From the NCBI GenBank assembly GCA_023475105.1, contig JAMCWJ010000012.1:1-64000 (forward strand): a stretch of DNA of 64,000 nt. The letters run 5' to 3'. Below are positions 12,301 through 33,670 of this stretch, piece after piece. This DNA is from Nitrospirota bacterium. Lineage in GTDB: Bacteria > Nitrospirota > Thermodesulfovibrionia > Thermodesulfovibrionales > UBA9159. The notes beneath the pieces are model-generated. The model had not been told where the DNA came from. It searched no databases and saw only the letters and a program-made list of their open reading frames with translations. Within the stretch, counting starts at the first letter, position 1. Each line of letters opens with the position of its first letter. A program made the position numbers and the translations under genes.

Positions 12301-12402
12301 TTCACCAGGAGCAATATCCGGCCCACTAACGACCGAATATCCCAGCTCCTTGAACCAGTCAAGGGTAGCTTGCTCGATAATGGATTCGGTTATGTTGTTC
12401 AT
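9328..12402 (-). CDS. hsdR: Type I restriction enzyme R subunit (HsdR)
   Basis: 1024 aa; N-terminal nuclease region ([22 protein letters not shown]), helicase motifs ([32 protein letters not shown]). Confidence 0.97.
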
Positions 12403-12426
12403 CTGCTCACTGTTGTATAATAAATT

Positions 12427-12588
12427 ATGAAAAAGAAGTCTCTGAAAGAGACCAACCCCTATTTAAGAGACCCCGAAAAATATGAGGCTTCATTAACTGC
12501 AAGTGTCGTTACCTCCTCTGCGGTCGAGGGCATTCGGATAACAGCGGCGCAACTCCTGAAAAAGAGTCCTAAAGTCCGCCGCCACTAA
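12427..12588 (+). CDS. Small (53 aa) candidate Fic antitoxin carrying an (S/T)xxxE(G/N) motif; not in supplied ORF track
   Basis: Translation [59 protein letters not shown] matches the Fic inhibitory motif; TATAAT at 12416-12421; 3' end overlaps fic by 20 nt. Confidence 0.55.
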
Positions 12589-13225: not shown

Positions 13226-13228
13226 ATC

Positions 13229-14137
13229 TTACGTTCTCAATTTGCACGGCGCTTTATCAGCTTCGTGCTGAGGCTCATACCACCAGAAATTAATCGGATG
13301 TTTTGCGTCCGGCGTTTTGAGACCCTTGTGCGTTTTCAAGCTCACGCCAAGCTTTTTACTTTTACATTTGTTATTGAATTCAAACATGACGCAACATCTT
13401 TCTTTATTTGATTTGCTCAGCTTTGGGAGACGTCCCTGTTCCATAGGGAATAAAGAACACTCCGCCTTCTTAGCTGCTTCCCAGGATTGGTAGGATGCGT
13501 AAGAGCTTCTTGAATATACGGATATGCCTGCAAAAAGATCAGCCAGTTGAACAAGCGGTTCCTGATGTGATTTGCAGGGTGAAAGCAATTCAATCCTGAA
13601 TTCTTGTTTCAACCTTAAAGCGAATTTGCCTTTTGTGAATAAGTCCCTTCGGATTTCGGTCTTTCTGCCGGCACAGTCCAAACAATCCTGAACAGAGTTC
13701 CATTTTAGTGCAGTATTCTCGTCAGGATATAGTGCCCAAATGCTGCCATCAGGCCACCGCTCGCAAAGAACATATTTAAGAAGGTGATAATACATCCGTT
13801 CGAGATTGGCAATGTCATCTCTTTTGGGGATTTTGTGTCGACTGTCTTCGGTATCCCATGTTAATACGTCTATTCTCAAAGAGCCATTTAATGCTTTCTC
13901 AATAGCGAAATCAATCATCTTTAGCGCAGCAAACCGCTCCCTTGCGCTCGCCAGTTTTTCCCATTTGAACTCACGGACCTCAGATTCTCTGAGCAATCTT
14001 TGCATTTCGTGACGGAAGACGTTCACGTTCTGTTGCGGTAGCGTTACCAATGCAATTCCACGATAGCGCCCTTCGTTATATCCTTTCTCATCAGCAAACG
14101 CTATATGACTCATCGCCTCTGCTTGTGTGGTGCTCAT
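13229..14137 (-). CDS. DUF3800 domain protein
   Basis: N-terminal FADEKGYNEGRYRGIALV and EPLVQLADLFAGISVY pattern typical of DUF3800; sits between hsdS and fic. Confidence 0.65.
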   Translation of the reverse strand: MSTTQAEAMSHIAFADEKGYNEGRYRGIALVTLPQQNVNVFRHEMQRLLRESEVREFKWEKLASARERFAALKMIDFAIEKALNGSLRIDVLTWDTEDSRHKIPKRDDIANLERMYYHLLKYVLCERWPDGSIWALYPDENTALKWNSVQDCLDCAGRKTEIRRDLFTKGKFALRLKQEFRIELLSPCKSHQEPLVQLADLFAGISVYSRSSYASYQSWEAAKKAECSLFPMEQGRLPKLSKSNKERCCVMFEFNNKCKSKKLGVSLKTHKGLKTPDAKHPINFWWYEPQHEADKAPCKLRT

Positions 14138-15330
14138 GAAAGTTCAGCCTCAACAAACCTCTCCGCATCCTTCACCCTTATCTCCCCCGACAACAGCTTC
14201 GGCAGCAAGGCATCACGGATAGCAGCAAGGGTGCGGGATTCCTTCAGATTGATCACGACTCGATGGTGGAATCCCTCCGCTTGCTGATTGAAAACTTGTA
14301 GCACTCGAGCCGATGGAACAATTATCGGAATTGGCCGAAAGTTCCTTTTGCTGACTTCAAGAAATGTTGTACCATTTGCTCGTCCCTCAATGGTGTCCAT
14401 ATTTTCTCTTGCCCAATAAAGAACATAATAATTTGGCAACTCCTGATCACAAATCATGGCGATGAAGCCTTGATTGACTGCAACCGGAACTTCTGAAACT
14501 GCAAGATAACCTATTGGTGCGCGTGAGGATAATAGCACCGTGCCCTTCGGCAATAGACCTGAACTTATTTGCTGTAATCCCTTCTCGGTGATACGTCGCT
14601 CAGTTTCAAGCAGTATAGGACTTGAGAGAGAAGCCAGGTCTTTTGGAGTCGCCCAACAGAGAGAGCCGCTTTGCCAGAAGGTAGGCTCTTTCGTGCTTGG
14701 CGTGCTGCCACCCACGACTCTTACTTCATCACTGACTGGGGAAACCCTCCACCGCTTCGGAATCTTTCCAAGCGGTGAGTCCTGCCATTCTTTGTGAGGT
14801 CCATAGCCGGGAATGGGGTCGAAGTCCACGAACCACGACTTGAAGATCGCCCTCGCCATAGCCTCAAGCGTCTCATTCATTTTCCTGTTCAACTCGATTT
14901 TGTCATCCAATGCGCCGAGGATCGAGGCAATGGCTTTCTGTTCGGGGAGAGGAGGGACTTTGACGGGCAGATTATAAAAAGCATCACGGCTTGTAGAGGG
15001 AATAGCAGAGCCGCTGTCCATGCTATTTATGTCTTGTGTGAGGAGTTGATAATAAGCCCACTTCAGGTCAATGTCCGTTTTGGGCTCTAAATAGAAGGCA
15101 GTATCGATGACAAAGAATGGCTTCTTTGAGTAATGAACCCCCCGGTATGCGCCTTTGCGGCCGATGATCACGCCAGGATGCGGACATAGTGGCTCAGCAT
15201 GGCTGCCTATGACACCGTTTGTCCCATAAACAGGAAACGATCCGGCTCCGTGTTCATAGCCACGGAGTCCTTTACCATATTCAAGAGTGGCCAGTTCACC
15301 CCATCGGCACTCGCGCCATTTCGCCGTCAT
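14134..15330 (-). CDS. hsdS: Type I restriction enzyme specificity subunit (HsdS)
   Basis: Two TRD regions; VKVPPLPEQKAIASILGALDDKIELNRKMNETLEAMARAIFKSWFVDFDP spacer is diagnostic. Confidence 0.96.
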   Translation of the reverse strand: MTAKWRECRWGELATLEYGKGLRGYEHGAGSFPVYGTNGVIGSHAEPLCPHPGVIIGRKGAYRGVHYSKKPFFVIDTAFYLEPKTDIDLKWAYYQLLTQDINSMDSGSAIPSTSRDAFYNLPVKVPPLPEQKAIASILGALDDKIELNRKMNETLEAMARAIFKSWFVDFDPIPGYGPHKEWQDSPLGKIPKRWRVSPVSDEVRVVGGSTPSTKEPTFWQSGSLCWATPKDLASLSSPILLETERRITEKGLQQISSGLLPKGTVLLSSRAPIGYLAVSEVPVAVNQGFIAMICDQELPNYYVLYWARENMDTIEGRANGTTFLEVSKRNFRPIPIIVPSARVLQVFNQQAEGFHHRVVINLKESRTLAAIRDALLPKLLSGEIRVKDAERFVEAELS

Positions 15331-15869
15331 CCTTTCTCTACTTCCCTCCTGAACCCTATCTTCCTCTTCTTCGTCTCCGGCGGGCTCATGAGTTGCCGGA
15401 TCGCATCGAAGACGACCTTGAACTGCGAGTCGTACTTCTTTTCAAGATCATCGAGTCTTTTGGCAAGGTCTTTGTGAGATCCAATCATTTCGCGGAGCTT
15501 TACGAATGCCCTCACCACGTACACGCTCATTGCCACTGCTTGTTTACTGTTCAAAACCGTCGCTGCCATAATTGCACCGTGTTCAGTGAAAACCCACGGC
15601 AAAAAACGAGGATCGCGGTGCTTCTGTGAACCGGTCGCAATTTGCGACCGGTTCAAATCGCCACGTGACTTTATACCTTGCCATTCTTCAGCGGTCAACT
15701 GGAAGGCAAAATCTTCAGGGAATCTGTCCGAATTGCGTCTAATCTGCTCATTGAGCCTCTTGGTCGTAACTCCGTAAAGCTCTGCTATGTCGGCATCCAG
15801 CATAACCTTCTCGCCTCGTATCAGCAGAATCTTCCTCTCAATCATCTCAACTGGTATTAATGCTTTCAA
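15327..15869 (-). CDS. ORF6N domain-containing protein
   Basis: MLDADIAELYGVTTKRLNEQIRRNSDRFPEDFAFQLTAEEW; C-terminal coiled segment. Confidence 0.92.
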   Translation of the reverse strand: MKALIPVEMIERKILLIRGEKVMLDADIAELYGVTTKRLNEQIRRNSDRFPEDFAFQLTAEEWQGIKSRGDLNRSQIATGSQKHRDPRFLPWVFTEHGAIMAATVLNSKQAVAMSVYVVRAFVKLREMIGSHKDLAKRLDDLEKKYDSQFKVVFDAIRQLMSPPETKKRKIGFRREVEKG

Positions 15870-15935
15870 CTCCCCTCCTTCTTTAAGGTCACAAATTGTG
15901 ATCTTAAACTAATCTTGAGGTTCCGAAATGGCACC

Positions 15936-17519
15936 TCAAAACCCGACCCCCCTCAAGTTCTTTCTTATAACCTTCTCAAGCTTTGCGCTCTCAGAAAACT
16001 GCTCTTCGAGCTTAGCGGTAAGCCTTTTCATTTTCTCATCAAAGGGCTCGTCATCGTCCTCGACATCCTCAGCGCCGACATAACGACCAGGTGTGAGAAC
16101 ATAGCCATGAGCCCGTATTTCCCCTATAGAAGCGCTCTTGCAGAAACCGGGGATGTCCTTATATTCGCCGGCTCCTTTTTCTCCGCGCCATGCGTGATAT
16201 GTCTGTGCTATCTTCATTATCTCTTCGTCGGAAAACTCCCTATGGGTCCTGTCGATGAGATCACCCATTTTACGGGTGTCTATGAACAGGGTCCGGCCAC
16301 TGCGATCCCGAAACTTGCCATTCTTCTTGCTCCTCGTGACAAACCAGAGACAGGCAGGGATCGGGGTCGTATAGAAAAGCTGGCCGGGAAGGGCAATCAT
16401 GCAGTCAACCAGATCGGCCTCGATGATGTTTTTTCGTATCTCTCCTTCTCCGGACTGGTTTGAAGACATGGAACCGTTGGCAAGGACAAAGCCCGCTATG
16501 CCGTTCGGCGAAAGATGGTGGATGAAATGCTGGACCCAGGCAAAATTGGCATTGCCTGCCGGCGGGATTCCGTATTTCCATCTCACATCTTCGCGCAACA
16601 GTTCGCCTTTCCAGTCACTCACATTGAACGGCGGATTGGCAAGGACAAAATCTGCCTTGAGATCCTTGTGCAGGTCTTGCCTGAAGGTGTCTGCATGATG
16701 AGAACCGATATTCCCCTCAATGCCTCTGATAGCAAGGTTCATATTGCAAAGGCGCCAGGTAGTAGGGTTTGATTCCTGACCGTAAACTGAGATGTCGCCC
16801 TTTCTTCCTCCGTGGGCCTCAACGAACTTATCTGATTGAACGAACATTCCGCCCGATCCACAGCAAGGGTCATAGACACGGCCTTTATAAGGCTCAATCA
16901 TCTCCACAAGGACCTTTACGACCGATTGAGGGGTATAGAACTCACCGCCGCCTTTGCCCTCTGCCGAGGCAAAGCGTCCGAGAAAATATTCATAGACACG
17001 GCCAAGGATGTCTTTTGACCGGCTCTCGGCATCACCAAGGCCGATAGTGCCGATCAGGTCGATAAGCTCGCCCAGGGTATGTTTATCCAGTGCGGGTCTT
17101 CCATAGTCCTTAGGAAGAACCCCTTTCAGCTTCGGGTTTTCCTTTTCGATAGCAACCATCGCATCGTCAACAATCTTTCCGACCGTCGGCTGTTTTGCGC
17201 TTGCACCGAGGTGAGGCCACCTGGCATCTTTAGGAACCCAAAAGATGTTTTCCGAAAGGTACTCGTCTCTGTCTTCGGTCACGCCATAACGCGCTTGTTC
17301 TTCCCTGACATAGTATTCACTCTTTGGATTGGATACAAGGGACAAGAGATTCTTATGCCGTTCTTCAAAAGCATCGGAGATATACTTGAGAAAGATGAGG
17401 CCGAGGGTAATGTGCTTGTATTCTGCGGGATCCATATGGCCGCGCATCTTGTCGGCGGCCTGCCACAGTTTCTCTTCGAAGCCAAGATTACCGCCGTTTG
17501 ATGTTTTCTTCGTTGCCAT
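15936..17519 (-). CDS. hsdM: Type I restriction enzyme methylase subunit (HsdM)
   Basis: [43 protein letters not shown] motifs. Confidence 0.97.
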
Positions 17520-18423: not shown

Positions 18424-19263
18424 TCAGATCTCGAGAAGAGGTATAAACCCGTAACCCTTATATATCGCTTGGGCCTCTCTTGAAAGGATGAAAGAGAGGA
18501 AGTCTCGGGCGCTTCCCGGATGAGGGGCGTTCTTCAGCTTCGCCACGTAATAGGTAACCCGGTCTCTCTGATCGAGCTTTTCCCCCGGCTCTATGACCTG
18601 AATCTCTAACCCCCCGCTCTTCGCATGGAGCGCCTCGGTAGCCCAGACCGGGCCTACATCGACTGTTCTCTTTCTGATCCTCAACGGAGTTTCCCTGTGA
18701 TGAACAACCGTAGGAATCGTTGACCCCTCAGCCCTCTTCTCCTCCATGATTCTCCTTGCGAGTTCTTCGCCGCCGGCTTCCTCATACATCGCCGCAATGT
18801 ATTTTGTAATATTCTCCATCTCGCCCGGTTGAGAGATTCTCACGTCGTCCCTTTGCAGGTCAAGAACGGAGGTTATCCCGGCAGGATTCCCTTCGGGGAC
18901 CATGAGGACAATCCTGTTATGAAGGTAAGGATGGTATTCTTCAATCAGTCCGCGCCTTGAAAGTTCCTGCATCGCCCCCTCGTCGACAGCGGCATAAATG
19001 TCGGGCCTTCCCGTTATCGTCCTGCCCTGAAATATGGCGCCCCCGGCCAGTATCTGTCTCAGTTCAAGGCCGGGCGGCAGCGTTTCGTAAAATATCTTTT
19101 CAACTTCCGGATGCCGCTCGCGAAAGGCGACAAGAAGTTCCTGCATTACCATAAACTGATTGCCGGCCATAAAAAGGATAAGCTGAGCCTCATCCATGAG
19201 TTCGAGGTCATGGAGGTCATCCAACCTCGTCGGCGGTATCTTCGGATATTCTTCAGTGCTCAT
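18424..19263 (-). CDS. ModA-like/type II periplasmic-binding-fold protein lacking an obvious signal peptide
   Basis: LILFMAGNQFMVMQELLVAFRERHPEV...FQGRTITGRPDIYAAVD...FLSFILSREAQAIYKGYGFIPL; N-terminus MSTEEYPKIPPTRLDDLHDLE is hydrophilic. Confidence 0.65.
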   Translation of the reverse strand: MSTEEYPKIPPTRLDDLHDLELMDEAQLILFMAGNQFMVMQELLVAFRERHPEVEKIFYETLPPGLELRQILAGGAIFQGRTITGRPDIYAAVDEGAMQELSRRGLIEEYHPYLHNRIVLMVPEGNPAGITSVLDLQRDDVRISQPGEMENITKYIAAMYEEAGGEELARRIMEEKRAEGSTIPTVVHHRETPLRIRKRTVDVGPVWATEALHAKSGGLEIQVIEPGEKLDQRDRVTYYVAKLKNAPHPGSARDFLSFILSREAQAIYKGYGFIPLLEI

Positions 19264-19349
19264 AGTTGTCCTTAATACCTTCAAAGTGAAACGAATAAAG
19301 TACCAGACTGCAGTCCTTTAATCTTCAAAAAGGGCAATATTATTTGCCT

Positions 19350-20166: not shown

Positions 20167-22755
20167 TCATTCCCCGATAGTTGCACGGCTGCCATCCAAC
20201 ACAGGGACATTTATCAGCGGGTTCACCTTCCATTTTGTGACCTCGAAAATCCCTCCCTTTTCGAAGGGCGGAATAAGGACAATATTTTCCGGCAGACAAG
20301 GGTCCCGATATGCGGCCAGGGTGATGCTCCCTGCTTCCGTCGAGACCTTCACGTAATCGCCGCTTCTTATGGATAATCTGTCCGCCAGGATTTCACTCAT
20401 CTTAACATAAGGTTCAGGAGAAATGCTCTGCAAGGCCGGAGAAAACCTGCTTGCATTCTGCGAATGAAAAAGATGCGCTTCCCTGCGAACATGTACCCCT
20501 CCCGCTTCCGAGTTTTTCATGACAGAGATGATGTCGGGCAGATCAACCCCTTCTATGTGCGCATCGTGGCGCAACGGCCCGCCCCCGTAAGGCCACATGC
20601 ACTTGCCGCCCGCAATGTGATCATGGGTGACCTCTCTATAGATATGAGAAATCCTTGTTATCTCGGCAAATACATCGGTCACATCCCGGTAGCCCGTATC
20701 GAGGCCGAGTATCTTGCTGATCTCAGAGATGATCTTCCATTCCTCAATGCCCTCTCCCTCAACAGCCTTTCTGGTGAGTTGTATCCTGCGCTCAAGGTTG
20801 GTGTACGTGCCCTCTTTTTCGGCCCACGACAACGCAGGCAGCACCACATCCGCATGCCTGGCCGTCTCGGTAAGAAACCTGTCCTGGACGACAAGAAATT
20901 CAATATTCCTGAGGGCATCTCTCACATAGTTCGTATCAGGGAGACTCAGGGCCGCATCTTCCCCCATCACATAGAGCGCCTTTATCTTGCCCACATGCGC
21001 AGCTTCTATCATCTCCGCATAATCGAGTCCGGGTGTTGACGGGAGCACAATCCCGAGAGTTTCTTCACATCTCTTCCTGAAGCTCTCGATGGCCAGCGGT
21101 CTTCCGCTCGGAAGCATGTCGGGCTGGCATCCCATATCCAGGAGCCCCTGTTCGTTGGGAAGTTCTGAGAGAAGATAGACCTTGCCGTTCAGCAGATATG
21201 CAAGGGCGGCAAGGAACAAGAGATTCATATGTCCGGTGCTTGTCTGAACAATGTCTCTCCCTATGATGATTGAAGGATTGGTCATGTTTGACAAGGTGTT
21301 TGCCATATCGATGAGCTCATTGAGACCGAACCTGCCCACTTCAGCGGCGCTTTTCAGCGGTACGGGCTGGAGTCCGCTGATAATTTCATCGAAGGCAGGC
21401 CTCTCTCCCGGGAAGGATTTCATCTGTCTTACCTCGGAGACCAGAGCAGCCAGGAGCACTGTTTCGGCCGGGGAACTCGTAATGAATGTGTGTTTTGAAA
21501 ACCTTTTTAATCCCCCGGGATATCCTATCACGATAACGGGGACTCCTTTCTTATGGGCAGACCTGATCTGCAGACCCAACACAGGATTTACTGCAGTGGG
21601 ATCGCCGCCTATGACAAAGATGCCGTCGGAATTGGATATGCCGTGCACGTAGTTGGCGGTAACGCCCTGTCCGAAAATCCTTTCGAAGAATCTCTGGGCA
21701 GGTCCATACGCCAGGCCCGCAACCGAATCTATGTTGTTTGTGCCGATAGCTCCCCTGAGAAACTTTTGAAACACGTAGGCGTCCTCGTTGGTGCACCTGC
21801 CGGATATTATGCCTGCGACGGCATCACTCCCATTGTCTCTCTTAATCTCCTCCAACCGATGAGCGATATGGGTGATCGCCTCCTCCCACGTAACCGGCTC
21901 CAGCTCTCCATCCCTCCTCATCAGTGGAACGCTTAATTTGTCGCCGTTATTCACACAGTCATAGCCGAACCTTCCCCTGGCACAGAGGATCCCCTTGTTG
22001 AACCCTGGGTCGGTCCCGGGTACGCTTCTCACGACGGAATTATTTCTCACCTGCAGGACCAGGGAGCATCCGACACCGCAATATGAACAGACGGTTGCAA
22101 CTTCTCGCTCCATGAGCCACGGCCGATAGCCATGTCTGTGTAGCCGTGATGTAATGGCCCCCACAGGGCATACGGAGAGACAGTTTCCGCAATACTCGCA
22201 ATCGTACCTGCCCCCGGAAAAGGGTTCGACGTAAGCTTTGCTCCCCCGATTGGCGACGCACAGCGCTGACGCGCCCTGGACGTCGTCACACATCCTCACG
22301 CAACGGGAACATAGTATACAACGCTCCCTGTTTCTCACGATAAGGGGATCTTCAAAGTTTTCGGGATATTTCCTCTTGCTTTCCGCAAAGCGTCCCGTTG
22401 CAGGGCCGTACTTCACCGCGAGGTCCTGCAATTCGCATTCACCTGCCTTGTCGCAGTGAGAGCAATCGAGTGGGTGGTTTATGAGGAGAAACTCCAGAAC
22501 GGCCCTTCTCGCCTCAACGACTTTCTCCGTTTCCGTCCGGACCACCATGCCGTCACTTACCTGCTGGCTGCACGAAGTCTGGAGTCTCGGTACTTTCTCT
22601 ATCTCGACAAGACAGAGTCTGCACCCCCCGTAAGGCTTGAGAGCGTCATGGTGGCAGAGGGTTGGTATATCTATCCCCGCAGCCCTTGCCGCCTCGAGGA
22701 TCGTGACCGGTTTTACGAAAGTAATCTTCGTCCCGTTTATGGTTACCGTTATCAT
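20167..22755 (-). CDS. NADH dehydrogenase subunit G-like molybdopterin-fold Fe-S protein (NuoG-like)
   Basis: N-terminal 2Fe-2S (GGCRLCLVEI), HxxxC cluster (HPLDCSHCDKAGECELQD), two 4Fe-4S motifs, then molybdopterin-fold region; 'IDSVAGLAYGP' lacks the Cys/Sec expected in formate dehydrogenases. Confidence 0.85.
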   Translation of the reverse strand: MITVTINGTKITFVKPVTILEAARAAGIDIPTLCHHDALKPYGGCRLCLVEIEKVPRLQTSCSQQVSDGMVVRTETEKVVEARRAVLEFLLINHPLDCSHCDKAGECELQDLAVKYGPATGRFAESKRKYPENFEDPLIVRNRERCILCSRCVRMCDDVQGASALCVANRGSKAYVEPFSGGRYDCEYCGNCLSVCPVGAITSRLHRHGYRPWLMEREVATVCSYCGVGCSLVLQVRNNSVVRSVPGTDPGFNKGILCARGRFGYDCVNNGDKLSVPLMRRDGELEPVTWEEAITHIAHRLEEIKRDNGSDAVAGIISGRCTNEDAYVFQKFLRGAIGTNNIDSVAGLAYGPAQRFFERIFGQGVTANYVHGISNSDGIFVIGGDPTAVNPVLGLQIRSAHKKGVPVIVIGYPGGLKRFSKHTFITSSPAETVLLAALVSEVRQMKSFPGERPAFDEIISGLQPVPLKSAAEVGRFGLNELIDMANTLSNMTNPSIIIGRDIVQTSTGHMNLLFLAALAYLLNGKVYLLSELPNEQGLLDMGCQPDMLPSGRPLAIESFRKRCEETLGIVLPSTPGLDYAEMIEAAHVGKIKALYVMGEDAALSLPDTNYVRDALRNIEFLVVQDRFLTETARHADVVLPALSWAEKEGTYTNLERRIQLTRKAVEGEGIEEWKIISEISKILGLDTGYRDVTDVFAEITRISHIYREVTHDHIAGGKCMWPYGGGPLRHDAHIEGVDLPDIISVMKNSEAGGVHVRREAHLFHSQNASRFSPALQSISPEPYVKMSEILADRLSIRSGDYVKVSTEAGSITLAAYRDPCLPENIVLIPPFEKGGIFEVTKWKVNPLINVPVLDGSRATIGE

Positions 22756-24014
22756 CCGCTTTTTATCTTTTCCTTAAATTCATCTCCGAAATTGTTGACA
22801 AAGCTCTGCACAGCTGCAGCAGCGTTTTCTCCCAGAGGGCAGAAGGTCTTCCCCGCGATATTGTTCGAGACCTCCGTCAGGAGGTCTTTATCGCCGCCGC
22901 GACCGGAGCCATTACTCATCCTCTCCAGGACCGCTCGCAGCCAGCTGACCCCTTCCCTGCAGGGAGTACACTTTCCGCATGATTCATGCTCGAAAAACTT
23001 CGTTATCCTCAGGCAGACTTTCACCATGTCTACGGTTTCATCAAAAACGATGACAGCCCCGGAACCCAGCATGCTCCCGACTTTCCCAAGATGGAAGAAA
23101 TCCATGGGGCAATCGATCGTATCAGGCAGCAGAACGGGAGTTGATACGCCGCCGGGGATTACCCCCTTCAGTTTCCTGTCACCCCTGATGCCGCCGCAAT
23201 GGGTATAGATTATTTCCCGCAGGGTAACCCCCATGGGAAGCTCATAAACACCGGGTCTTTTTACATGTCCGCTTACGGAAAAAAGCTTCAGACCGGGGCA
23301 TTCAGGGCTGCCTATCTTTGCGTACTCATCCCCTCCGATTTCGAGTATGTAGGGAATATTGGCAAGGGTCTCCACATTGTTCACCACTGTGGGTTTTGAA
23401 GAAAATCCCTCATTCACCGGAAAGGGCGGCTTGATTCTCGGCTGGCCCCTTTTCCCTTCGAGGGACTCGATGAGGGCTGTCTCTTCGCCGCAGATATAGG
23501 CGCCGGCGCCGCAGTGAATATGGAGATGAAAGACGACTCCTTTCCCGAGGATACTGTCGCCGAGATAGTTCTTTTCGTATGCTTCCTTGATAGCCCGGAG
23601 AAGAATATCCTTCGCCTTCGGATATTCTCCCCTGAGATAAATGTACCCCGATGCGGCACCGACGGCATATGCCGAAATCACCATTCCCTCTATTAAGAGG
23701 TGCGGGTTTTTCTCGATGATGATCCGGTCTTTGAAAGTGCCGGGTTCGCCTTCATCGGCATTACAGAGCAGGTACTTCTGCGTTTGAGGGTCTGCTACGG
23801 CAAATGACCATTTCATGCCGGTCGGGAATCCGGCTCCGCCCCTGCCCCGCAGTCCGGACTTCTTCACTTCGTCAAGAACCTGGCCGGGCTCCATGGAGAG
23901 CGCCTTATGGAGAGAGCGATATCCTCCCCACTCTCCATACTCGTCTATGCCGGCCGGACCCGGGCGGTCGGCGTTCTTTAGTAAAACGCTTTCCCTGCTA
24001 TTCATATCTCTCAA
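22752..24014 (-). CDS. NADH dehydrogenase subunit F-like flavoprotein (NuoF-like)
   Basis: GLRGRGGAGFPTGMKW, CNADEGEPGTFKDR, GAGAYICGEETALIESLEGKRGQPRIKPPFP, ESCGKCTPCREG. Confidence 0.95.
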   Translation of the reverse strand: MRDMNSRESVLLKNADRPGPAGIDEYGEWGGYRSLHKALSMEPGQVLDEVKKSGLRGRGGAGFPTGMKWSFAVADPQTQKYLLCNADEGEPGTFKDRIIIEKNPHLLIEGMVISAYAVGAASGYIYLRGEYPKAKDILLRAIKEAYEKNYLGDSILGKGVVFHLHIHCGAGAYICGEETALIESLEGKRGQPRIKPPFPVNEGFSSKPTVVNNVETLANIPYILEIGGDEYAKIGSPECPGLKLFSVSGHVKRPGVYELPMGVTLREIIYTHCGGIRGDRKLKGVIPGGVSTPVLLPDTIDCPMDFFHLGKVGSMLGSGAVIVFDETVDMVKVCLRITKFFEHESCGKCTPCREGVSWLRAVLERMSNGSGRGGDKDLLTEVSNNIAGKTFCPLGENAAAAVQSFVNNFGDEFKEKIKSG

Positions 24015-24465
24015 GAATCCCTATGATATTCTCTTCTGTGAGATTGCCGTGGAGGTCCGTATCGACAAGCATGGCAGGAGCCGTATCACACGCGCCTATA
24101 CATTCCATTATGACAAGGGAAAACCTCCTGTCAGGTGTGGTGAGGTTTGGTTCAAGTCCATATCTTCCTTTTAGGATATCCAAAAGTCTTTCTCCGCCCA
24201 TGATCATACAGGCAACATTAGTACATAACTGGATGAGATGCCTCCCCATCGGCTTGTGAGAGAACATCGCATAAAACGTAGAAACGCCTTTCACCGTTGC
24301 CTTTGGAATATTCAGTATTTCTGCCACTCTCTCTAAAGCCTCAGGACTCAACCATCCGTATTCCCTCTGGAACAGGTAAAGCGCCGGCAAAAGGCAGGAT
24401 CGCTCATCCTCGTATTTGCGCTTCAATTCGTTGATCTCATCCAAAATCTTGTTGTCCAATGCCAT
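23998..24465 (-). CDS. NADH dehydrogenase subunit E-like 2Fe-2S protein (NuoE-like)
   Basis: LYLFQREYGWLSPEALERVAEIL...VSTFYAMFS...CTNVACMIMGG...ECIGACDTAPAMLVD. Confidence 0.93.
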   Translation of the reverse strand: MALDNKILDEINELKRKYEDERSCLLPALYLFQREYGWLSPEALERVAEILNIPKATVKGVSTFYAMFSHKPMGRHLIQLCTNVACMIMGGERLLDILKGRYGLEPNLTTPDRRFSLVIMECIGACDTAPAMLVDTDLHGNLTEENIIGILERYE

Positions 24466-24484
24466 CTTATCTCGCCAACTTATA

Positions 24485-24646
24485 TTACTAATGAGGTCGA
24501 AAGAAAGCGACATCTCCTCTTATTCCGTCATTCCGGCTTGTCCGGTCCCGCCTCGGCGGGATTTCTTTGTTTTCAGAGAGATTCCCGACGCGCTTCGCTC
24601 GCGTGAATGACACATGGTGCTCTTTTACTTATGACCTCCTTAGTAA
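24485..24646 (+). repeat. MITE/REP-like element, copy B (about 162 bp), inverted relative to copy A
   Basis: TTACTAATGAGGTCGAAAGAAAGCGACATCTCCTCTTATTCCGTCATTCCGGCTTGTCCGGTCCCGCC...TATGACCTCCTTAGTAA; reverse complement of copy A with few differences. Confidence 0.88.
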
Positions 24647-25413: not shown

Positions 25414-26256
25414 TTACTTTATCCTTTGGAGAAGCGGCTTCGATGATGTCAATGCCCTTTGAAGACCAAGCTTTCCGTAATCAAGTCCGAGCGCCACCCC
25501 AAGCAGCTGCGTGATGTACAGAACAGGGAGGTTTATCTTTTCGCCCGACTCCCGCTCGACCGCGCGCTGTTTGGCATCCAGCATAAAGTGACATAAAGGA
25601 CAGGCCACTACGATACAATCAGGAGATAATCTTTTTGCCTCATTCAGGATCGTTCCACAAAGCTTAAGGGCAACCTTTTCCCGTGAGAGAATGAGTGTCC
25701 CTCCGCAACAATCGACCTTATACGGAAAGGAGACGGGCTGTGCGCCGGTTGCCTCGATGAGACCCTCCATCGCCTTTGGGTTCTCCTGACTCTCCTCTCC
25801 CAGAGGAAACGGCCTTGTTATGAGGCAGCCGTAGTAGGGGAGCGCCCTGATGCCCTTGAGGGGACTCATGACCTGCCGCGTTATAGCCTCAGCTCCGACG
25901 TCGACTGCAAGCACCTCCAGAAGGTGTTTTACCTTTGGAATCCGGCCGAGAGAAAGCCTCTGCACAAGCGCCGTATCCTCCCGGGCCTTTTGCACTATCT
26001 GCAGATGGACCTGGTAACAGGACGAACACGGCATAAGCAGATCCATCTCCTCCTTGTCTGCCTTAACCAATGTCCTGGCCGGAAGGCTCTCTGAAAGTTC
26101 CTTACTTACTGATTTCGCAACAGATGCGCCGCAGCACTGCCAATCCTCCACCTCCTTGATTTCAATGCCGAGGGGCGAAGCCAGTGCGAGAAACGATTCT
26201 TCGTAATCGACCGCAGTCCCCTTCAGGCTGCATCCCGGATAGTAAAGATATCTCAC
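25414..26256 (-). CDS. hdrB: Heterodisulfide reductase subunit B-like (two CCG domains)
   Basis: VRYLYYPGCSLKGTAVDYEES...WQCCGAS...MPCSSCYQ...YYGC...DCCGGT...CPLCHFMLD; GTG start at 26256 preferred over a longer ORF overlapping hdrC. Confidence 0.9.
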   Translation of the reverse strand: MRYLYYPGCSLKGTAVDYEESFLALASPLGIEIKEVEDWQCCGASVAKSVSKELSESLPARTLVKADKEEMDLLMPCSSCYQVHLQIVQKAREDTALVQRLSLGRIPKVKHLLEVLAVDVGAEAITRQVMSPLKGIRALPYYGCLITRPFPLGEESQENPKAMEGLIEATGAQPVSFPYKVDCCGGTLILSREKVALKLCGTILNEAKRLSPDCIVVACPLCHFMLDAKQRAVERESGEKINLPVLYITQLLGVALGLDYGKLGLQRALTSSKPLLQRIK

Positions 26257-26311
26257 TTGCGCTCTCCCCGGCAATTCGAGCAACCACTCATTCCCGTGAA
26301 CCCAGCAAGCT

Positions 26312-26776
26312 TCATGAAAGCTTTCCCCGTCGCAGCAATTTGAACAACAGAACTGCATCTTCAAAAGGGTGGGCCGGCGGGAACTTGCTGAGAGCTATTC
26401 TCAAGCCAAGGCGAAGCTCGTTTATCCTGCCTTTTTTCTTTATCATCGCCATGAAGGCATTATAGTGAGGAAGCTTTTCTCCGGGCATGACCCATTTTCG
26501 TAGTTGCGCCGTCCGCCGTAATGCATACATAATCCCTGCAATATCGACTCCCCTGGGACATCTGACAGTGCAGGTCTGGCACGAGGCGCAGAGCCACAAA
26601 AAAGGGCTCCGGCCCGCCTCGCTAAGCCAGCCCCACTGGAGGAAACGTATGATCTTTCTTGGAGTATGTTCTGATTCAAAGGCAACAGGACATCCGGCGG
26701 AACATCGTCCGCATTGAACGCAGCTTGAGTATTCAGGAAGTGTATCAGGATGAAGAGGTTCCATTATGACCTTCAT
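26312..26776 (-). CDS. hdrC: Heterodisulfide reductase subunit C-like
   Basis: CVQCGRCSAGCPVAF and CASCQTCTVRCPRGVDI twin 4Fe-4S motifs. Confidence 0.9.
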   Translation of the reverse strand: MKVIMEPLHPDTLPEYSSCVQCGRCSAGCPVAFESEHTPRKIIRFLQWGWLSEAGRSPFLWLCASCQTCTVRCPRGVDIAGIMYALRRTAQLRKWVMPGEKLPHYNAFMAMIKKKGRINELRLGLRIALSKFPPAHPFEDAVLLFKLLRRGKLS

Positions 26777-29112
26777 ACCTTGAATGGATTAGGTCCCATT
26801 GCCTTAAGGTCTCTCATATAGGAATTTACCAACTCCACATACCTTCCGGAGTCCCGTATTTCCAGATGCTCGAAGCGCACCCTCTCCGGCTCGATCATCA
26901 TCTTCTTCAGTTTATCGGCTAAATCACCACTGCGGGTCTTGACAAGCTGATTGCCCCTGACAGAGTGGCACTGGCCGTCTTTGCAGCCGGCGATCAAAAT
27001 GCCGTCGATACCGAAAGAGAGGGCATCGGCCAGGAGGGCGTTGTTTACCGAGCCGGCGCAGGGGACTTTTATAAAAAAGACATTCGCAGGGATCACGGCA
27101 TCGGAATCAGCCGCTTCCCTCGCCGCGTGATAGGCATCGTTCTTACAGAGAAAGGCGAGGATAACGGGCTCTTCCTTCGGCAGCGAAGATACCTTAATCG
27201 CCTGGATCTGGGCCGCAGTCTGTTTGATCGTGAAATGACGGAGAGATATGGCGGTCAAAGGGCAGGTTCCCATGCAGTTTCCGCACTGGCGACATCTTGC
27301 AAGGTCGGGGGTCGGGAACCCCTCGGAGTCGAAGTAATACGCCGAAAAAGGACAGTCCTCCATACAGCGCTTACACTTGTCGCACTTGGTCTTGTCAACC
27401 AGGGGGTGCGTGGGTTCAACAAGAAATGTCCCGTCGATAAACTGCAGCGCTTCGACCATCGCCCGATGAGTTGATTCAATGGACTGCCCAACATTCATCG
27501 GCCCGCGACAGGCGCCGCCCACATAGATTCCGGCCCTCTGGCTCTCTTCCGGATGGCATTGGAGATGCGATTCAAAAAACCCGAAATTGTTTCGGGGAAG
27601 GTTGAAGAGTTCTGCTATCTCCCCGGTGCCTCCTGAAGGGGCCATACCCCCTGCAAGCACCAGCAGATCGAGACTGAGGGTTACCTCCTTGCCGGAGAGA
27701 GTGTCCTCGGCCCTTATCTTGAGTCTCCCATTTTCTCCGTCGGGTTTGACGGTCGAGGGGAGCCCGCGGATAAATATTACCTTGTCGAGAGACTTCACTC
27801 GCTGGTAAAGCTCCTCGTCAAAACCCGGCGTCCTTATGTCCTGATAAAATATCGAGAAGCGCGAATTGGGAAGTCTTTCCTTCAGAGAGAGGGCCTGCTT
27901 CAGAGAAACGGAACAGCAAACAGAAGAGCAGTAGTTGAGGTGTTTTTCGTCCCTGCTTCCGGCGCACTGTATGAAACCAACCTCTTTAAGCTCCGGAGGG
28001 TTTTCGAGCAGGCGCTCTGCTTCAAGATTGCTTATCACATTTGGATAAAGTCCGTATCCGTATTCCTCGACCTTTGACAGGGGGTATGGGTCCCAACCTG
28101 TCGTGGCAATGATCGCTCCCGCCCGCAGGGTCATGTCCGAAGGGGTTTGTTCGAGGTCCACCGAATTGGTCGGACATGCCTTCACACATTCCCTGCATTG
28201 CGGCGGGCAGTACCGACGCTCTACTACAAAGGCGGAGGGAAAGGCCATTGGGGTCGGAGAATGTATCGCCTTTTTCCCTGACTGATGCGGATTTTGAGGA
28301 AGATGTGATGTCGAATCGTCGGGTATGGTCACAGGGCATACCTCAGCGCATTTACCGCAGCCGTTACACCTTTCCTCGCTGACATACCGCGGCGCTTTCT
28401 CTATCTTCACCTCGAAGTTCCTCGGGCCGCCATCGAGACCTTTTACCCGCGAGAGAGTATGGAGTTCCAACTTGTTCGATCCCCTGAGTTTTTCGATCTC
28501 GAATTCCAATCCGCAACGGGGATCGCAGATCCGCGGGTAGAGCCTGTGGAGGGACGCAACCTTCCCCCCGACGCCGCTTTCCTTCTCTACCAGATACACC
28601 CTCTTGCCGAGCTTTACGAGGGAGGAGGCGGCATGGAGTCCGGCCACCCCCGCCCCTATAATGAGAACGGCGTCAACGGCAGGAAGGCTCACGGGCTCGA
28701 GGGCCTCGATGAGACGGGCCCTCCCAACCGCCATCTGAACCAGCATCATGACCTTCTGCGTCTGCACGGCACGATCCGGTCCTTCCTTGCCGACCCCCTG
28801 CTCCTCCACATCGCACCATTCGTGCAGGTAAGGGTTAAGTCCTTCGGCGGAAAGTTCGGCCTTGATTATCTTTTCCTGATAGGGGGAGAACCTGCCCACC
28901 CACAGGAGCCTGTTCAGGTTACCCGCTTTGAGGTCTTCCTTCACCGACACGAGGAACCCCGACCATATGTCCGCTATCACCTCACAGCGGCTCACATTCT
29001 TCATCTTGATCAGTTTCTGGACGACTGTTCCAAGATCAACTGCCCGGGCAAGTCCTCCCCCCGGATCGAATATAAATAAGCCGATTTTGGACGGAGCCTT
29101 CGTCTTCTCCAT
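26773..29112 (-). CDS. hdrA: HdrA-like flavoprotein fused to an MvhD/FlpD-like domain (QmoB-type architecture)
   Basis: FAD motif AVLIIGAGVAGLHAASSLVKLGKRVYLVEKESGVGGK; several 4Fe-4S motifs; C-terminus IKVPCAGSVNNALLADALSFGIDGILIAGCKDGQCHSVRGN is MvhD-like. Confidence 0.9.
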   Translation of the reverse strand: MEKTKAPSKIGLFIFDPGGGLARAVDLGTVVQKLIKMKNVSRCEVIADIWSGFLVSVKEDLKAGNLNRLLWVGRFSPYQEKIIKAELSAEGLNPYLHEWCDVEEQGVGKEGPDRAVQTQKVMMLVQMAVGRARLIEALEPVSLPAVDAVLIIGAGVAGLHAASSLVKLGKRVYLVEKESGVGGKVASLHRLYPRICDPRCGLEFEIEKLRGSNKLELHTLSRVKGLDGGPRNFEVKIEKAPRYVSEERCNGCGKCAEVCPVTIPDDSTSHLPQNPHQSGKKAIHSPTPMAFPSAFVVERRYCPPQCRECVKACPTNSVDLEQTPSDMTLRAGAIIATTGWDPYPLSKVEEYGYGLYPNVISNLEAERLLENPPELKEVGFIQCAGSRDEKHLNYCSSVCCSVSLKQALSLKERLPNSRFSIFYQDIRTPGFDEELYQRVKSLDKVIFIRGLPSTVKPDGENGRLKIRAEDTLSGKEVTLSLDLLVLAGGMAPSGGTGEIAELFNLPRNNFGFFESHLQCHPEESQRAGIYVGGACRGPMNVGQSIESTHRAMVEALQFIDGTFLVEPTHPLVDKTKCDKCKRCMEDCPFSAYYFDSEGFPTPDLARCRQCGNCMGTCPLTAISLRHFTIKQTAAQIQAIKVSSLPKEEPVILAFLCKNDAYHAAREAADSDAVIPANVFFIKVPCAGSVNNALLADALSFGIDGILIAGCKDGQCHSVRGNQLVKTRSGDLADKLKKMMIEPERVRFEHLEIRDSGRYVELVNSYMRDLKAMGPNPFKV

Positions 29113-29438
29113 TAATCGTCGCTGCCCCGGTTTCTATACTGGTACCTCTCAACCTTTCCGTTAAGGTCTATACATGTCCAGGTGATTGTGTTCGTTCCCA
29201 TCATCGGGATGAGCCTTGCCACATGATATCCCAATTGATAGGGAATCCTGGTCTCAAGCGCTCCCTTGGGGCATGCCTTTATGCAGGACATACAGTCCCA
29301 GCAATCGCGCGGCATCCTGCAAAAGGCCTTTTGGTCTTCGCCGAGATGCATAAGGTCCCCAGGGCAGACCTGTTCACAGAGAGACTCTTTCTCGGCTTTG
29401 CAGCCATCACATTTTTCACGGTCTACTTTCGGCGGCAT
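29112..29438 (-). CDS. aprB: Adenylylsulfate reductase beta subunit-like ferredoxin (AprB-like, 108 aa)
   Basis: KVDREKCDGCKAEKESLCEQVCPGDLMHLG...CWDCMSCIKACPKGALE...LIPMMGTNTITWTCIDLNGKVERYQYR. Confidence 0.8.
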   Translation of the reverse strand: MPPKVDREKCDGCKAEKESLCEQVCPGDLMHLGEDQKAFCRMPRDCWDCMSCIKACPKGALETRIPYQLGYHVARLIPMMGTNTITWTCIDLNGKVERYQYRNRGSDD

Positions 29439-29457
29439 AATTTATTCTCCTCCTTTC

Positions 29458-31215
29458 TTAGGGTTTTGTTCTATCGCCCGGAATTATTTGCTCATAGGGA
29501 CGTGTAGACATCTGGATTTCTCCGGTCTTTTGGTCCCGTCTGCTTTCCACAAAACAGTCGAGTTTCGGGTCCACGTCAGGATAATCCATACGGGTCTGCC
29601 ATCCCGGCCAGCGGGTCTCTTTCCTGTATTTGAGATGATGAACAAGGACCTCTGCCACATCGAGACGATCAATGACCTCGAGGGCATTCATCAATTCGTG
29701 AAGGTCCTTTGCATAGAGGTATTTCGTCTGGTCCTTGAGCATCTTAAGGTTTTTGAGCGCATGGTCCAACCTCTCCTCATTCATCCTGTAAAACTGGTGA
29801 ATTCCCCCTGCATACTCGTCCATCAGCCTCTGCATCCGCTCTTCCATCTCTATACCGGTAACTCCGTCATACTCAGGTCCCCTCAAAAGAGGAGCAAAAA
29901 CCCGTTCTTTCTCTTTTTCGACCTGTGCCTTATCGAGGGCAGGCAGCTTGACGTTCTTTACGTACTCGACAGCGCCTCTCGCTGCCAGTCGCCCTTCGGC
30001 CCCGCATCCGCCGACGAACTTGTTGGGGTTGCCCCCAGCTGTTTCTCCTGCCGCGAAAAGCCCGGGGGTAGTAGTCATCCTGTTGATATCCACCCAGTAA
30101 CCGCTGCCGGTATGACCGCCGACAATGTAGGGGTCGCTGCCGTAGATCTCTACGGGCTCCTTTGTGATATCATGACCGCGGCTGGCCAAAAACAACACAA
30201 AACTCGGTCGCTCGTTGAGGAGGTCTTCCCTTAAATCCTTTGCATCTTCCTGGCTCAACACAGTGGTATCCACATAGGTGGGTCCCCTTCCCTCGAGCCA
30301 CTCCGTCATGGGCGCATTGAGACGGTAGAATCGGGCGGCCTTGTCTCCCCCCTTGTCGGCATACCGGACCTGCATTACACGCTCGCCTTTGGCATTGGTG
30401 ATAAGGCATCCGAAGGCCACGGAAAGCGTATCGACCGGCCCGCTGAAATCCTTTGTCCTGGTCGCCACCCATCTCTGTTCGAGAGAACTCATCTCGGCGC
30501 CGGCACGGATACCCATCGCGTAGCCTGTTCCGACATTGAAGGGACACATCCATGTCTGATGATGTGCGCCGGAGTAATCGGTCGTCGGCGATTTATAAAT
30601 GCCGCAGGCCCCGCCGGTCGAAACGATGGTCGCTTTGGCGCGGATCACGTAGAACTTTCCATCCCTCACCCCGATACCCATGGCGCCGATACACCTGTCA
30701 CCATCCATTAATAAATTTGTGGCCACCACGCGGTTGAGAACCTGCGCTCCCATTTCCATGGCCTTTTCCGCCATTATCGGCTTGAGTTGCTCGCCGTGGA
30801 TCGAAACATCGAAGCGTCCCCTGAGCTGTTTGTGTCCTTCCTCGTCTTTGACGAAAGGGAGTCCCCATTCTTCGAGCATATCGACCGTCTCGTTCAATAT
30901 CTTCGCATTACTCAGGGCGAGGTCCTCACGGATGGGTCCTCCGCCTACCTGCGCCCGGCTCCACTTCACGAGACTTTCCGGGGTCTCCCCCTTGTCCGTA
31001 CGGAGATACGTATTGATCGCATCCATGCCGGCCGCTGTTGCGCCGCTTCTGCTGATGTGCGCCTTTTCCATGATGGTGACCTTCAGGGAGGGGTTCTTTG
31101 TCTTTGCCTCGACAGCGGCGAAACAACCGGCATTGCCTCCACCGACGATCAGCAAGTCTGTTTCAATCATCTCTGACTGAATCTCGTTGAAGTCTTTCGG
31201 AATCGTCTGAGCCAT
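29458..31215 (-). CDS. aprA: Adenylylsulfate reductase alpha subunit-like flavoprotein (AprA-like, divergent)
   Basis: LLIVGGGNAGCFAAVEAKTKNPSLKVTIMEKAHISRSGATAAGMDAINTYLRTDKG; RWVATRTKDFSGPVDT; adjacent to aprB-like gene. Confidence 0.78.
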   Translation of the reverse strand: MAQTIPKDFNEIQSEMIETDLLIVGGGNAGCFAAVEAKTKNPSLKVTIMEKAHISRSGATAAGMDAINTYLRTDKGETPESLVKWSRAQVGGGPIREDLALSNAKILNETVDMLEEWGLPFVKDEEGHKQLRGRFDVSIHGEQLKPIMAEKAMEMGAQVLNRVVATNLLMDGDRCIGAMGIGVRDGKFYVIRAKATIVSTGGACGIYKSPTTDYSGAHHQTWMCPFNVGTGYAMGIRAGAEMSSLEQRWVATRTKDFSGPVDTLSVAFGCLITNAKGERVMQVRYADKGGDKAARFYRLNAPMTEWLEGRGPTYVDTTVLSQEDAKDLREDLLNERPSFVLFLASRGHDITKEPVEIYGSDPYIVGGHTGSGYWVDINRMTTTPGLFAAGETAGGNPNKFVGGCGAEGRLAARGAVEYVKNVKLPALDKAQVEKEKERVFAPLLRGPEYDGVTGIEMEERMQRLMDEYAGGIHQFYRMNEERLDHALKNLKMLKDQTKYLYAKDLHELMNALEVIDRLDVAEVLVHHLKYRKETRWPGWQTRMDYPDVDPKLDCFVESRRDQKTGEIQMSTRPYEQIIPGDRTKP

Positions 31216-31327: not shown

Positions 31328-32017
31328 CTAATCTATGGACCGGAGCATCTTGGAGAGCTTTTGCGGATCGAGAATTACCATTTTTTTGCCGCTGCACCGG
31401 ATTGAGCCGTCCTTAACGAAGTTATTCAATGCCTCGGTGACCCTCTGACGGGTGGCGCCGATCATGTCTGCCAACTCTTGATGGGTAAACTTTCTTTCGA
31501 TCGTTATTCGCCCTTCAGTCTCCACCCCGCAGAGATCTCCAAGGCTCAGAAGAAGCTGGGCCAGCCGGCTTCTGAGGTCCTGAAAGTGTAATGCATTCAG
31601 GGACACACCGAGGCGCCTCATTCTGGCAGCCAGGATCTTTATCACTATCAAGGCTATTCTGGGATTCCTCTGTATCAGCTCTTCAAAGACTGTACGCTTT
31701 ATCAGAAATATCGTAGTGGGCTCCACCGCTTCGGCAAAACACATCCGCTCTTCTCCTCCAAAGGCCTCGGCAAGACCGAAAAACTCACCCCGATAACGAA
31801 ACCAGAAGATCGACTCCCTCCCACTTTCGGCAAGATCATAAATCTTTACCGTCCCCGCCTGAATGAGATAAACGGCATCCACGGGGTCCTCCGATGAAAA
31901 GACACAGGAACCTTTCTCAACGCTTTTCCTGACCGCATTCTTCATAAGGAATCCGATGTCCTCTTCAGACAATTCGCTAAAGAGGTCAATCCTGTCCAAA
32001 TACCATTTCTTCTCCAA
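31328..32017 (-). CDS. Crp/Fnr family transcriptional regulator
   Basis: cNMP-binding fold plus C-terminal HTH (FTHQELADMIGATRQRVTEALNNFVKDGSI). Confidence 0.93.
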   Translation of the reverse strand: MEKKWYLDRIDLFSELSEEDIGFLMKNAVRKSVEKGSCVFSSEDPVDAVYLIQAGTVKIYDLAESGRESIFWFRYRGEFFGLAEAFGGEERMCFAEAVEPTTIFLIKRTVFEELIQRNPRIALIVIKILAARMRRLGVSLNALHFQDLRSRLAQLLLSLGDLCGVETEGRITIERKFTHQELADMIGATRQRVTEALNNFVKDGSIRCSGKKMVILDPQKLSKMLRSID

Positions 32018-32080: not shown

Positions 32081-32115
32081 AAAACAAAGTTGGGAGCTTC
32101 AGTCTCCCAACTTTG
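32081..32115 (-). terminator. Rho-independent terminator downstream of the DASS transporter gene
   Basis: CAAAGTTGGGAG-cttcagt-CTCCCAACTTTG perfect 12-bp stem; on the minus strand followed by TTTT. Confidence 0.85.
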
Positions 32116-32158: not shown

Positions 32159-33670
32159 TTATAGCGGATACCCTATCAACGAAAGCCAGGCAGTCTGGAC
32201 GACCAAGACATAAATATTCGCTATTACCGAAAGCCCGGTCCCGAACCTGACCGCCGTCCATCCCGATGCCCCTGAAGCGCCCCAGGCGATGAGGAATGCA
32301 GTGATGGATATCGGCAGGAAGAACGCATAACTCAGGCAGTTTGTCAGAACTAAAGAGAACGGCAATATATTGAGGTTAAGTGTTTTGGCCATCCCGACCA
32401 ATAAAGGGATGAAGGCTGTGCCCATCGCAACAGCGCTCACTATCCCGGCCCTTGCTATCTGCAGCGCAACTGCGAGAACACCCATCATGAGAAGGGTCGG
32501 AAGACCTAAACCTCGTATCGGCTCTACGATAATGTTGGAGAGCCAAGCTACAGTTCCCACATCATACAGTATGGTGCCCAAAGAGATTGCGCCCCCAAGC
32601 AACACCCAGGTGTCCCACATGATATGTTGATTCACCTTCTTGAAATCGATCTTCCCCCAGGGCATGAACAGCAATGCCGCTGTTATTAATGCCACCATTC
32701 CCGATTTTATGTGGTGCAATCCCTCCGTCATCCAGAGGACCAGGCCTGTCAAAATACAGACAACCGCCCAGACCTCTCCCGGACTTATCTTGCCTAATTC
32801 TTTCGCAAGTTTCGGAAGCTCTTCTCTTGCGCCCGGTATTTCGAGCTTCCACAGCTTGAAGTAGGTGAAAACGTACCAGAACATTATAGGAAGGAGTCCC
32901 CAGAGAGGAAGGTTAAGCCAAAACCACTTCATCCATGAAATATAGATCCCTTCCGATTCAAGTTGACCAGCCAATATTACATTCGGAAAGTGGCTCGTCA
33001 GAATACACACACCGGTAAAAAGGGGTGTCAATCCGGGTGTCTGGAGCAGCAGGGCGGTATTGATCCTTTTAACCTCGGGCAGATGTTCTTTTCCATTCAT
33101 CAATGTGCCGATAGCCTTGGTAACAGGCAAAAAAAGCGCGGTTTCAGAAACAGTCGGCAGAACTGAGCCGACAGCTACGTCTGCCAGTCCAAGGCCTGTC
33201 TGAATTCTTGTTACCTTGCTTGACTTCATCTTAGTGACTATCGTCATGGCGATTCTTTTCCCGAGAGGCGTTCCCATCATGATGCCTGCAATTACGAAAG
33301 CCCCGCCTGCCAGGAAGAATATGTCGGTCGAAAATGCCTTGAAAGCCACACCCGGTTTGATTCCGGCAAACAGTACAACGAGCAACGGGGCTGAAAAACC
33401 CACAATAGCCTTTGGAAGGGCGTCTGTAACCATAATAGTGATGAACCAGAGAAAGACGCCCAAAACAGATTGGGAAGTGGGCCTTAAGCCGGGAAGGGTT
33501 GGACCGAAATGGCATAGACAGAGGATAGCAAAGGCGAGTATTAGTCCAAATATCGCCATCTTAGGCTTGCCCACCTCCTTCTCTTCCGCCTCTTCAATGG
33601 CCTTCATCTTCTCTTCCAAGAATGTTTCTTCAGCAGAACCCTTTTCTTCCATCTTCTTCTCCTTTTTCAT
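32159..33670 (-). CDS. DASS/SLC13 family anion:sodium symporter
   Basis: Multi-TM; SVLGVFLWFITIMVTDALPKAIVGFSAPLLVVLFAG, VLPTVSETALFLPV, SLGTILYDVGTVAWLS. Confidence 0.85.
   Translation of the reverse strand: MKKEKKMEEKGSAEETFLEEKMKAIEEAEEKEVGKPKMAIFGLILAFAILCLCHFGPTLPGLRPTSQSVLGVFLWFITIMVTDALPKAIVGFSAPLLVVLFAGIKPGVAFKAFSTDIFFLAGGAFVIAGIMMGTPLGKRIAMTIVTKMKSSKVTRIQTGLGLADVAVGSVLPTVSETALFLPVTKAIGTLMNGKEHLPEVKRINTALLLQTPGLTPLFTGVCILTSHFPNVILAGQLESEGIYISWMKWFWLNLPLWGLLPIMFWYVFTYFKLWKLEIPGAREELPKLAKELGKISPGEVWAVVCILTGLVLWMTEGLHHIKSGMVALITAALLFMPWGKIDFKKVNQHIMWDTWVLLGGAISLGTILYDVGTVAWLSNIIVEPIRGLGLPTLLMMGVLAVALQIARAGIVSAVAMGTAFIPLLVGMAKTLNLNILPFSLVLTNCLSYAFFLPISITAFLIAWGASGASGWTAVRFGTGLSVIANIYVLVVQTAWLSLIGYPL

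Follow-up and report, generated by a model that had tools for sequence, protein, structure and literature searches.

The gene aprA, coding for the alpha subunit of adenylyl-sulfate (APS) reductase, is routinely used as a marker of sulfate reduction and sulfur oxidation. Relatives of the enzyme are known from several settings: canonical AprBA is linked to QmoABC, Gram-positive sulfate reducers use a soluble QmoAB-HdrBC complex (PMC10504309), Taurinivorans muris has an AprAB without Sat or Qmo (PMC10507020), and the 3'-phosphoadenylyl-sulfate (PAPS) reductase of Methanothermococcus thermolithotrophicus, with a beta subunit of 104 aa, has a proposed PAPS 3'-phosphate loop, Lys120-Arg121-Ser122 (PMC10322725). 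Here we describe an AprAB-like pair joined to an Hdr module in a 64-kb stretch of a Nitrospirota genome (positions 1 to 64,000 of contig JAMCWJ010000012.1, assembly GCA_023475105.1; hereafter the window). We found that its alpha subunit belongs to a third clade of the AprA family, here called clade A, with intact catalytic residues, a rebuilt substrate channel and an anion importer as constant genomic partner.

A third clade of AprA-type subunits

The locus is a tight minus-strand operon of five open genes, in the order and with the domains that the initial annotation had described, separated by junctions of +19, -1, -4 and -53 bases. The aprA-like gene (29458..31215; 585 aa), identified by its open reading frame, family searches and phylogeny, codes for a protein with FAD_binding_2 and Succ_DH_flav_C domains. 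It is followed by an AprB-like beta subunit (29112..29438; 108 aa; open reading frame and family searches) with two [4Fe-4S] cysteine sets and a CWDC motif whose Trp matches the electron-transfer Trp-B48 motif; it scores 89.7 bits with the AprB model, against a cut-off of 135.65. Domain searches assign the remaining genes to an HdrA2-type HdrA of 779 aa fused to an FlpD/MvhD domain (26773..29112; PF02662, 2e-33) with four 4Fe-4S cysteine motifs, a soluble HdrC with two 4Fe-4S motifs (26312..26776), and an HdrB (25414..26364) in which a motif check found both CCG motifs complete, as had been proposed, and whose true start probably lies downstream of the TTG. The alpha-before-beta order and the short beta subunit, singled out at first as oddities, are real but normal for the short relatives of this family (clades B and M; 104 aa in Methanothermococcus).

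In a maximum-likelihood tree of 61 sequences, with the genome's own Sdh/Frd homologue as an outgroup on a very long branch, canonical AprA (100/100), a Methanothermococcus PAPS-reductase-type group (100/98) and clade A (99/100; 28 rows, window included) are recovered separately. The window alpha subunit is therefore neither a canonical dissimilatory AprA nor a fumarate reductase, in line with the divergence first noticed in its sequence, and the two placements that would have contradicted the initial annotation did not arise; its nearest named row is a Thermodesulfovibrio metagenome-assembled genome (MAG). Its top family models are of AprA type, with FrdA/SdhA models scoring lower. It reaches 599 bits with NCBIfam NF005331 (PRK06854, 'adenylyl-sulfate reductase'; cut-off 557), with which the clade A relative L117 scores 554, and only 396 bits with the canonical AprA model TIGR02061, whose cut-off is 642. 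Among solved structures, the Methanothermococcus PAPS reductase alpha subunit (PDB 8a8o; E 2.6e-150) comes closest, followed by canonical APS reductases. An AlphaFold model of the alpha subunit built from six sequences was too poor to use (mean pLDDT 53.6) and was set aside. A search of open-licence papers for a second AprAB with importers or Hdr found no description of clade A. The T. muris AprAB was considered as a possible example and not used; genome G417 alone carries clade A within its family. The contigs of the carriers G417 and G479 are near-complete. A frameshift or an assembly error interrupts one clade A aprA (G030:C12:265997-267711), leaving one open frame for residues 1-321 and another for residues 339-584.

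Other Nitrospirota carry a different short AprAB, clade B, with 47-54% identity to the window. Its genes adjoin sat and, in many cases, a gene for a NIR_SIR sulfite reductase, so that clade B is assimilatory by context. In nine loci from other Nitrospirota classes (L071-L079), short AprAB genes are joined to sat, and also to a NIR_SIR sulfite reductase in L071-L074, fused to TusA in L071; an AprAB-type route of sulfate assimilation seems to be widespread in these classes.

Substrate channel, importer and Hdr partner

Channel residues were taken from the listing for the Archaeoglobus APS reductase (PMC2211403), whose numbering is used here. The catalytic Asn74, Trp234, Arg265 and His398, which keep the sulfonate in place against FAD, are invariant in every clade A row covering them (N68, W222, R253 and H368 in the window) and missing from the Sdh/Frd outgroup, while Arg317 and Asp361 are likewise invariant in 28 clade A sequences. 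The lining is another matter: W95, D145, M235, W261, D274, V278 and N446 are fixed in these 28 sequences and occur in none of 32 other AprA/PAPS reductase sequences, and column 277 is Ser or Ala (window set: W85, D136, M223, W249, D262, S265, V266 and N398). Where canonical AprA has Tyr/Met95, Gln145, Gly274, Phe277, Leu278 and His446, the window reads W, D, D, S, V and N. Column 274, in a region that contacts the AMP phosphate, holds Asp in all clade A rows and Gly in every other readable row. The Lys-Arg-Ser position of the PAPS loop reads Arg-Phe-Asp. In 32 of the 566 alignment columns, clade A has a fixed residue that no other row shows, and seven of these columns are among the 18 channel positions (P=2e-5, a value that is only descriptive because the rows are related by descent). 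Intact catalytic residues combined with a replaced AMP-side lining argue for a kept sulfite/N5 chemistry and an altered leaving group.

Domain searches identified further minus-strand genes 5' of the operon: directly 5' of aprA a Crp/Fnr-family regulator (31328..32017), then a DASS-family anion:sodium symporter (Na_sulph_symp; 32159..33670) and a periplasmic oxyanion-binding protein of the PtxB/HtxB/ArrX/AioX family (PF12974; 33686..34516) with no adjoining ABC permease. A terminator-like hairpin of 12 pairs and a T tail (32085..32115, minus strand; from a consensus scan only) lies between the DASS gene and Crp-aprA-hdr, so that importer and reductase are probably on separate transcripts in the window genome. 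The initial annotation had covered neither these genes, nor the canonical apr-qmo genes elsewhere in the genome, nor the PAPS reductase as closest solved relative.

Counting the window, 28 clade A loci extend for 2 kb or more on the 5' side of aprA, and every one of them has an anion transporter gene directly upstream of aprA. Four types occur: DASS with a PtxB-like binding protein, a second DASS subtype, TctABC, which substitutes for DASS in five loci, and a TauE/SafE-family protein in one. A Crp-family regulator gene is close to most clade A loci. The sat gene adjoins aprAB in none of the 28 loci, versus nine of nine in clade B. Together with the rebuilt channel, this constant importer link strengthens the early suggestion of a different substrate.

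Apparent DASS-AprA fusion proteins in two relatives were rejected, one (L060) being bridged by a run of N and the other (L115) a spurious long frame, DASS itself being encoded in a different one. CHR (chromate/sulfate) transporter genes occur near L060 and L069, and a PF13469 sulfotransferase-family gene lies within about 6 kb of the module in three genomes (L012 4652-5797, L112 3115-4260 and L069 2985-4124). The window also encodes an SBP_bac_11/ModA-like protein without obvious signal peptide beside a response regulator (18424-19284, minus strand); in L064, a clade A locus, a 70% identical copy separates the DASS gene from the Crp gene, and the protein may belong to the system.

The Hdr module had been taken as the defining partner of the AprAB-like pair, a view that the comparison of neighbourhoods does not sustain. 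Nine of the 28 importer-complete loci (L117-L125) have no Hdr gene beside aprAB, and where present the partner comes from at least two lineages and in several architectures: HdrA-MvhD/HdrC/HdrB as in the window, an HdrABC set from a different lineage (its HdrA 39% identical), HdrA plus a membrane HdrC, HdrA plus FdhB/AsrAB-like subunits, or HdrA alone. Hdr is a recurrent but dispensable partner, whereas the importer is constant. The proposal that a single HdrA-MvhD gene replaces QmoA and QmoB holds only loosely: the protein is of HdrA2 type and matches QmoB at 24% and 34% along most of its length, and QmoA at 33%. The window module has the anatomy of a soluble HdrABC-MvhD complex (an HdrA carrying clusters and the FAD motif, the MvhD domain, an HdrC, and both CCG motifs in HdrB), from which bifurcation or confurcation appears possible.

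Downstream of the operon, nuoE-nuoF-nuoG-like genes (20167-24513, minus strand) include a molybdopterin-type large subunit with 2Fe-2S and 4Fe-4S domains, in which the Cys/Sec typical of formate dehydrogenase seems by eye to be absent. They were rejected as electron donor, being separated from the module by a 900-base gap and recurring only in a few Thermodesulfovibrionia loci with a larger complex I operon (L062, L063 and L065). Farther away (9328-17519, minus strand), translations inspected by eye resemble a type I restriction-modification system (HsdR-, HsdS- and HsdM-like) with interspersed Fic-like and KilA-N/ORF6N-like genes.

The window genome contains dsrAB and, on contig C25, canonical sat, aprBA and qmoABC followed by a pyrophosphatase. 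This separate set, whose search had been proposed with the initial annotation, makes the window module an additional system in a sulfate reducer. Clade A is present in a minority of the sampled Nitrospirota (matches of 63-89% identity), where most carriers have DsrA. The phylum to which a 'Deltaproteobacteria' MAG belongs was sampled with 395 genomes; 17 of them carry clade A, and DsrA was found in all 16 of these that were tested. Three clade A genomes have divergent second dsrAB copies (G302:C117, G217:C40 and G284:C8; DsrA at about 330 bits, below the family cut-off), and in G284 only this type and a small fragment are present.

Candidate substrates

We tentatively favour, at somewhat less than even odds, a reading of the locus as a third functional class of the AprAB family: a reductase that would free sulfite from an imported sulfo-anion for DsrAB, likeliest a carboxylated organosulfonate. 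The DASS symporter with its PtxB-like binding protein, or TctABC or TauE/SafE in relatives, would import a small sulfo-anion. TauE/SafE proteins are regarded as transporters of sulfite and sulfoacetate, and DASS carries dicarboxylates or sulfate. Tripartite tricarboxylate transporter (TTT) systems import mainly carboxylates but include the sulfolactate importer SlcHFG (PMC5812351), and TTT sulfolactate uptake has also been proposed in a taurine-respiring gut sulfidogen (PMC10507020). Carboxylated organosulfonates, such as sulfoacetate or sulfolactate, are candidates because they are the simplest overlap of these three cargoes. N5 of the reduced FAD would attack the sulfonate sulfur, as it does with APS, and the organic part would leave instead of AMP, the clade-specific Asp262 perhaps, speculatively, protonating the leaving carbon. 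The FAD-sulfite adduct would then decay to sulfite, to be respired by DsrAB. Electrons would reach the FAD via both AprB clusters, supplied in the window genome by the soluble HdrA-MvhD/HdrC/HdrB complex and in relatives by other Hdr sets or none. HdrA-MvhD could give low-potential electrons by bifurcation, which APS, having a higher potential, should not need. A more specific version is possible but doubtful: clade A AprAB would be a reductive desulfonase of flavin/iron-sulfur type, and as such a new class of enzyme, taking sulfite off an imported organosulfonate by N5 attack, with a bifurcating Hdr drive in part of the family.

Several points weigh against these proposals. To our knowledge, flavin-N5 cleavage of the C-S bond of an unactivated sulfonate has no precedent, and it would need a stabilised carbanion as leaving group. 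The PtxB-like binding protein equally suggests an inorganic oxyanion, its relatives binding phosphite, arsenite or arsenate. Most clade A hosts also carry canonical sat-apr, and the three genomes in which no sat was detected (G284, G302 and G399) are draft MAGs. The genes suyAB, xsc and islA were not seen beside the module, although no search was aimed at them. Finally, the proposed substrate and activity of clade A members are deduced from sequence and gene context.

Sat and DsrAB in most hosts would also suit an alternative APS reductase, receiving APS from the cell's own Sat and low-potential electrons from a cytosolic Hdr rather than from menaquinol via Qmo, with DASS importing sulfate. 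Consistent with it, the catalytic residues and the adenine-clamp Arg317 are retained, and DASS members can carry sulfate (as the Pfam name indicates; SLC13A1 is among the weak structural matches). However, the channel residues touching ribose and phosphate are swapped for other invariant ones, among them an Asp in place of the phosphate-contact glycine, sat never adjoins clade A aprAB and goes undetected in three genomes, and TctABC, mostly a carboxylate importer, stands in for DASS at five loci. We consider this explanation unlikely: current models label clade A 'adenylyl-sulfate reductase', but both the channel and the gene neighbourhood speak against APS being the substrate.

A role as thiosulfate (or polythionate) reductase, in which N5 would attack the sulfonate sulfur of imported thiosulfate to give sulfide and sulfite, is quite unlikely. 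In its favour, no analogue with a good leaving group on the sulfonate sulfur is simpler than thiosulfate, the low potential of its couple would explain why a bifurcating Hdr complex was recruited, the tetrathionate sensor TtrS (a weak match) belongs to the PF12974 family just as sulfate carriers belong to DASS, and the hosts are DsrAB organisms; yet about one third of the loci have no Hdr, and inorganic sulfur oxyanions are not known as cargo of TctABC systems (PMC5812351). Since AprA lies within the fumarate reductase superfamily and di- and tricarboxylates are the typical cargo of DASS and TctABC, clade A could also have reverted to fumarate-reductase-like C=C chemistry as a di- or tricarboxylate reductase or dehydrogenase. 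This seems decidedly improbable given that no clade A sequence departs from the AprA-specific tetrad N74/W234/R265/H398, which the genome's own Sdh/Frd homologue lacks, that clade A is almost confined to DsrAB organisms, and that a TauE/SafE-family transporter takes the importer place in one locus. An assimilatory PAPS reductase like the Methanothermococcus enzyme, which is the nearest solved structure and would suit the strong APS kinase match in the window genome, is very improbable indeed, as the 3'-phosphate loop is replaced, clade A falls outside that group in the tree, no sat or sulfite reductase adjoins it, unlike in the assimilatory clades, and strong APS kinase matches are missing in many other hosts.

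If the reading of clade A as a source of sulfite from an imported sulfonate or other sulfo-anion is true, sulfidogenesis would have an input that has gone unrecognised, and changes to the channel alone could redirect the FAD-N5 sulfite chemistry of AprA. In the narrower case of a desulfonase, sulfite-respiring bacteria would have a new class of enzyme and a route from organosulfonate to sulfide independent of glycyl radicals and lyases.

Comparison with known systems

Clade A resembles the Methanothermococcus PAPS reductase in its short alpha and beta subunits with alpha first, its FAD and two [4Fe-4S] clusters and its catalytic residues (about 46% identity). It differs by its separate clade, the change from KRS to RFD in the loop, the channel residues W95, D145, W261, D274, V278 and N446, and its link to an importer instead of sulfate-assimilation genes. 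Clade B AprAB is close in subunit length, gene order and identity; unlike clade A, it adjoins sat/NIR_SIR and keeps Y95, N145, G274 and L278. With canonical AprBA-QmoABC, clade A shares the catalytic tetrad, the AprB cluster and Trp motifs and, in many members, an HdrA/QmoB-related electron supply, but it is only 33-41% identical, has the alpha-beta order, a rebuilt channel and a DASS/TctABC/TauE importer, and is not linked to sat or qmo.

On the Hdr side, the window module is like the bifurcating HdrABC-MvhD and FlxABCD-HdrABC complexes in its HdrA with MvhD, HdrC and two-CCG HdrB; unlike them, it is joined to an AprAB-like pair, and its operon contains neither hydrogenase nor formate dehydrogenase nor Flx genes. 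As in the QmoAB-HdrBC system of Gram-positive sulfate reducers, a soluble Hdr-type complex accompanies an AprAB-type enzyme, but here a single HdrA-MvhD gene stands in place of separate QmoA and QmoB, and the partner is a clade A rather than a canonical AprAB.

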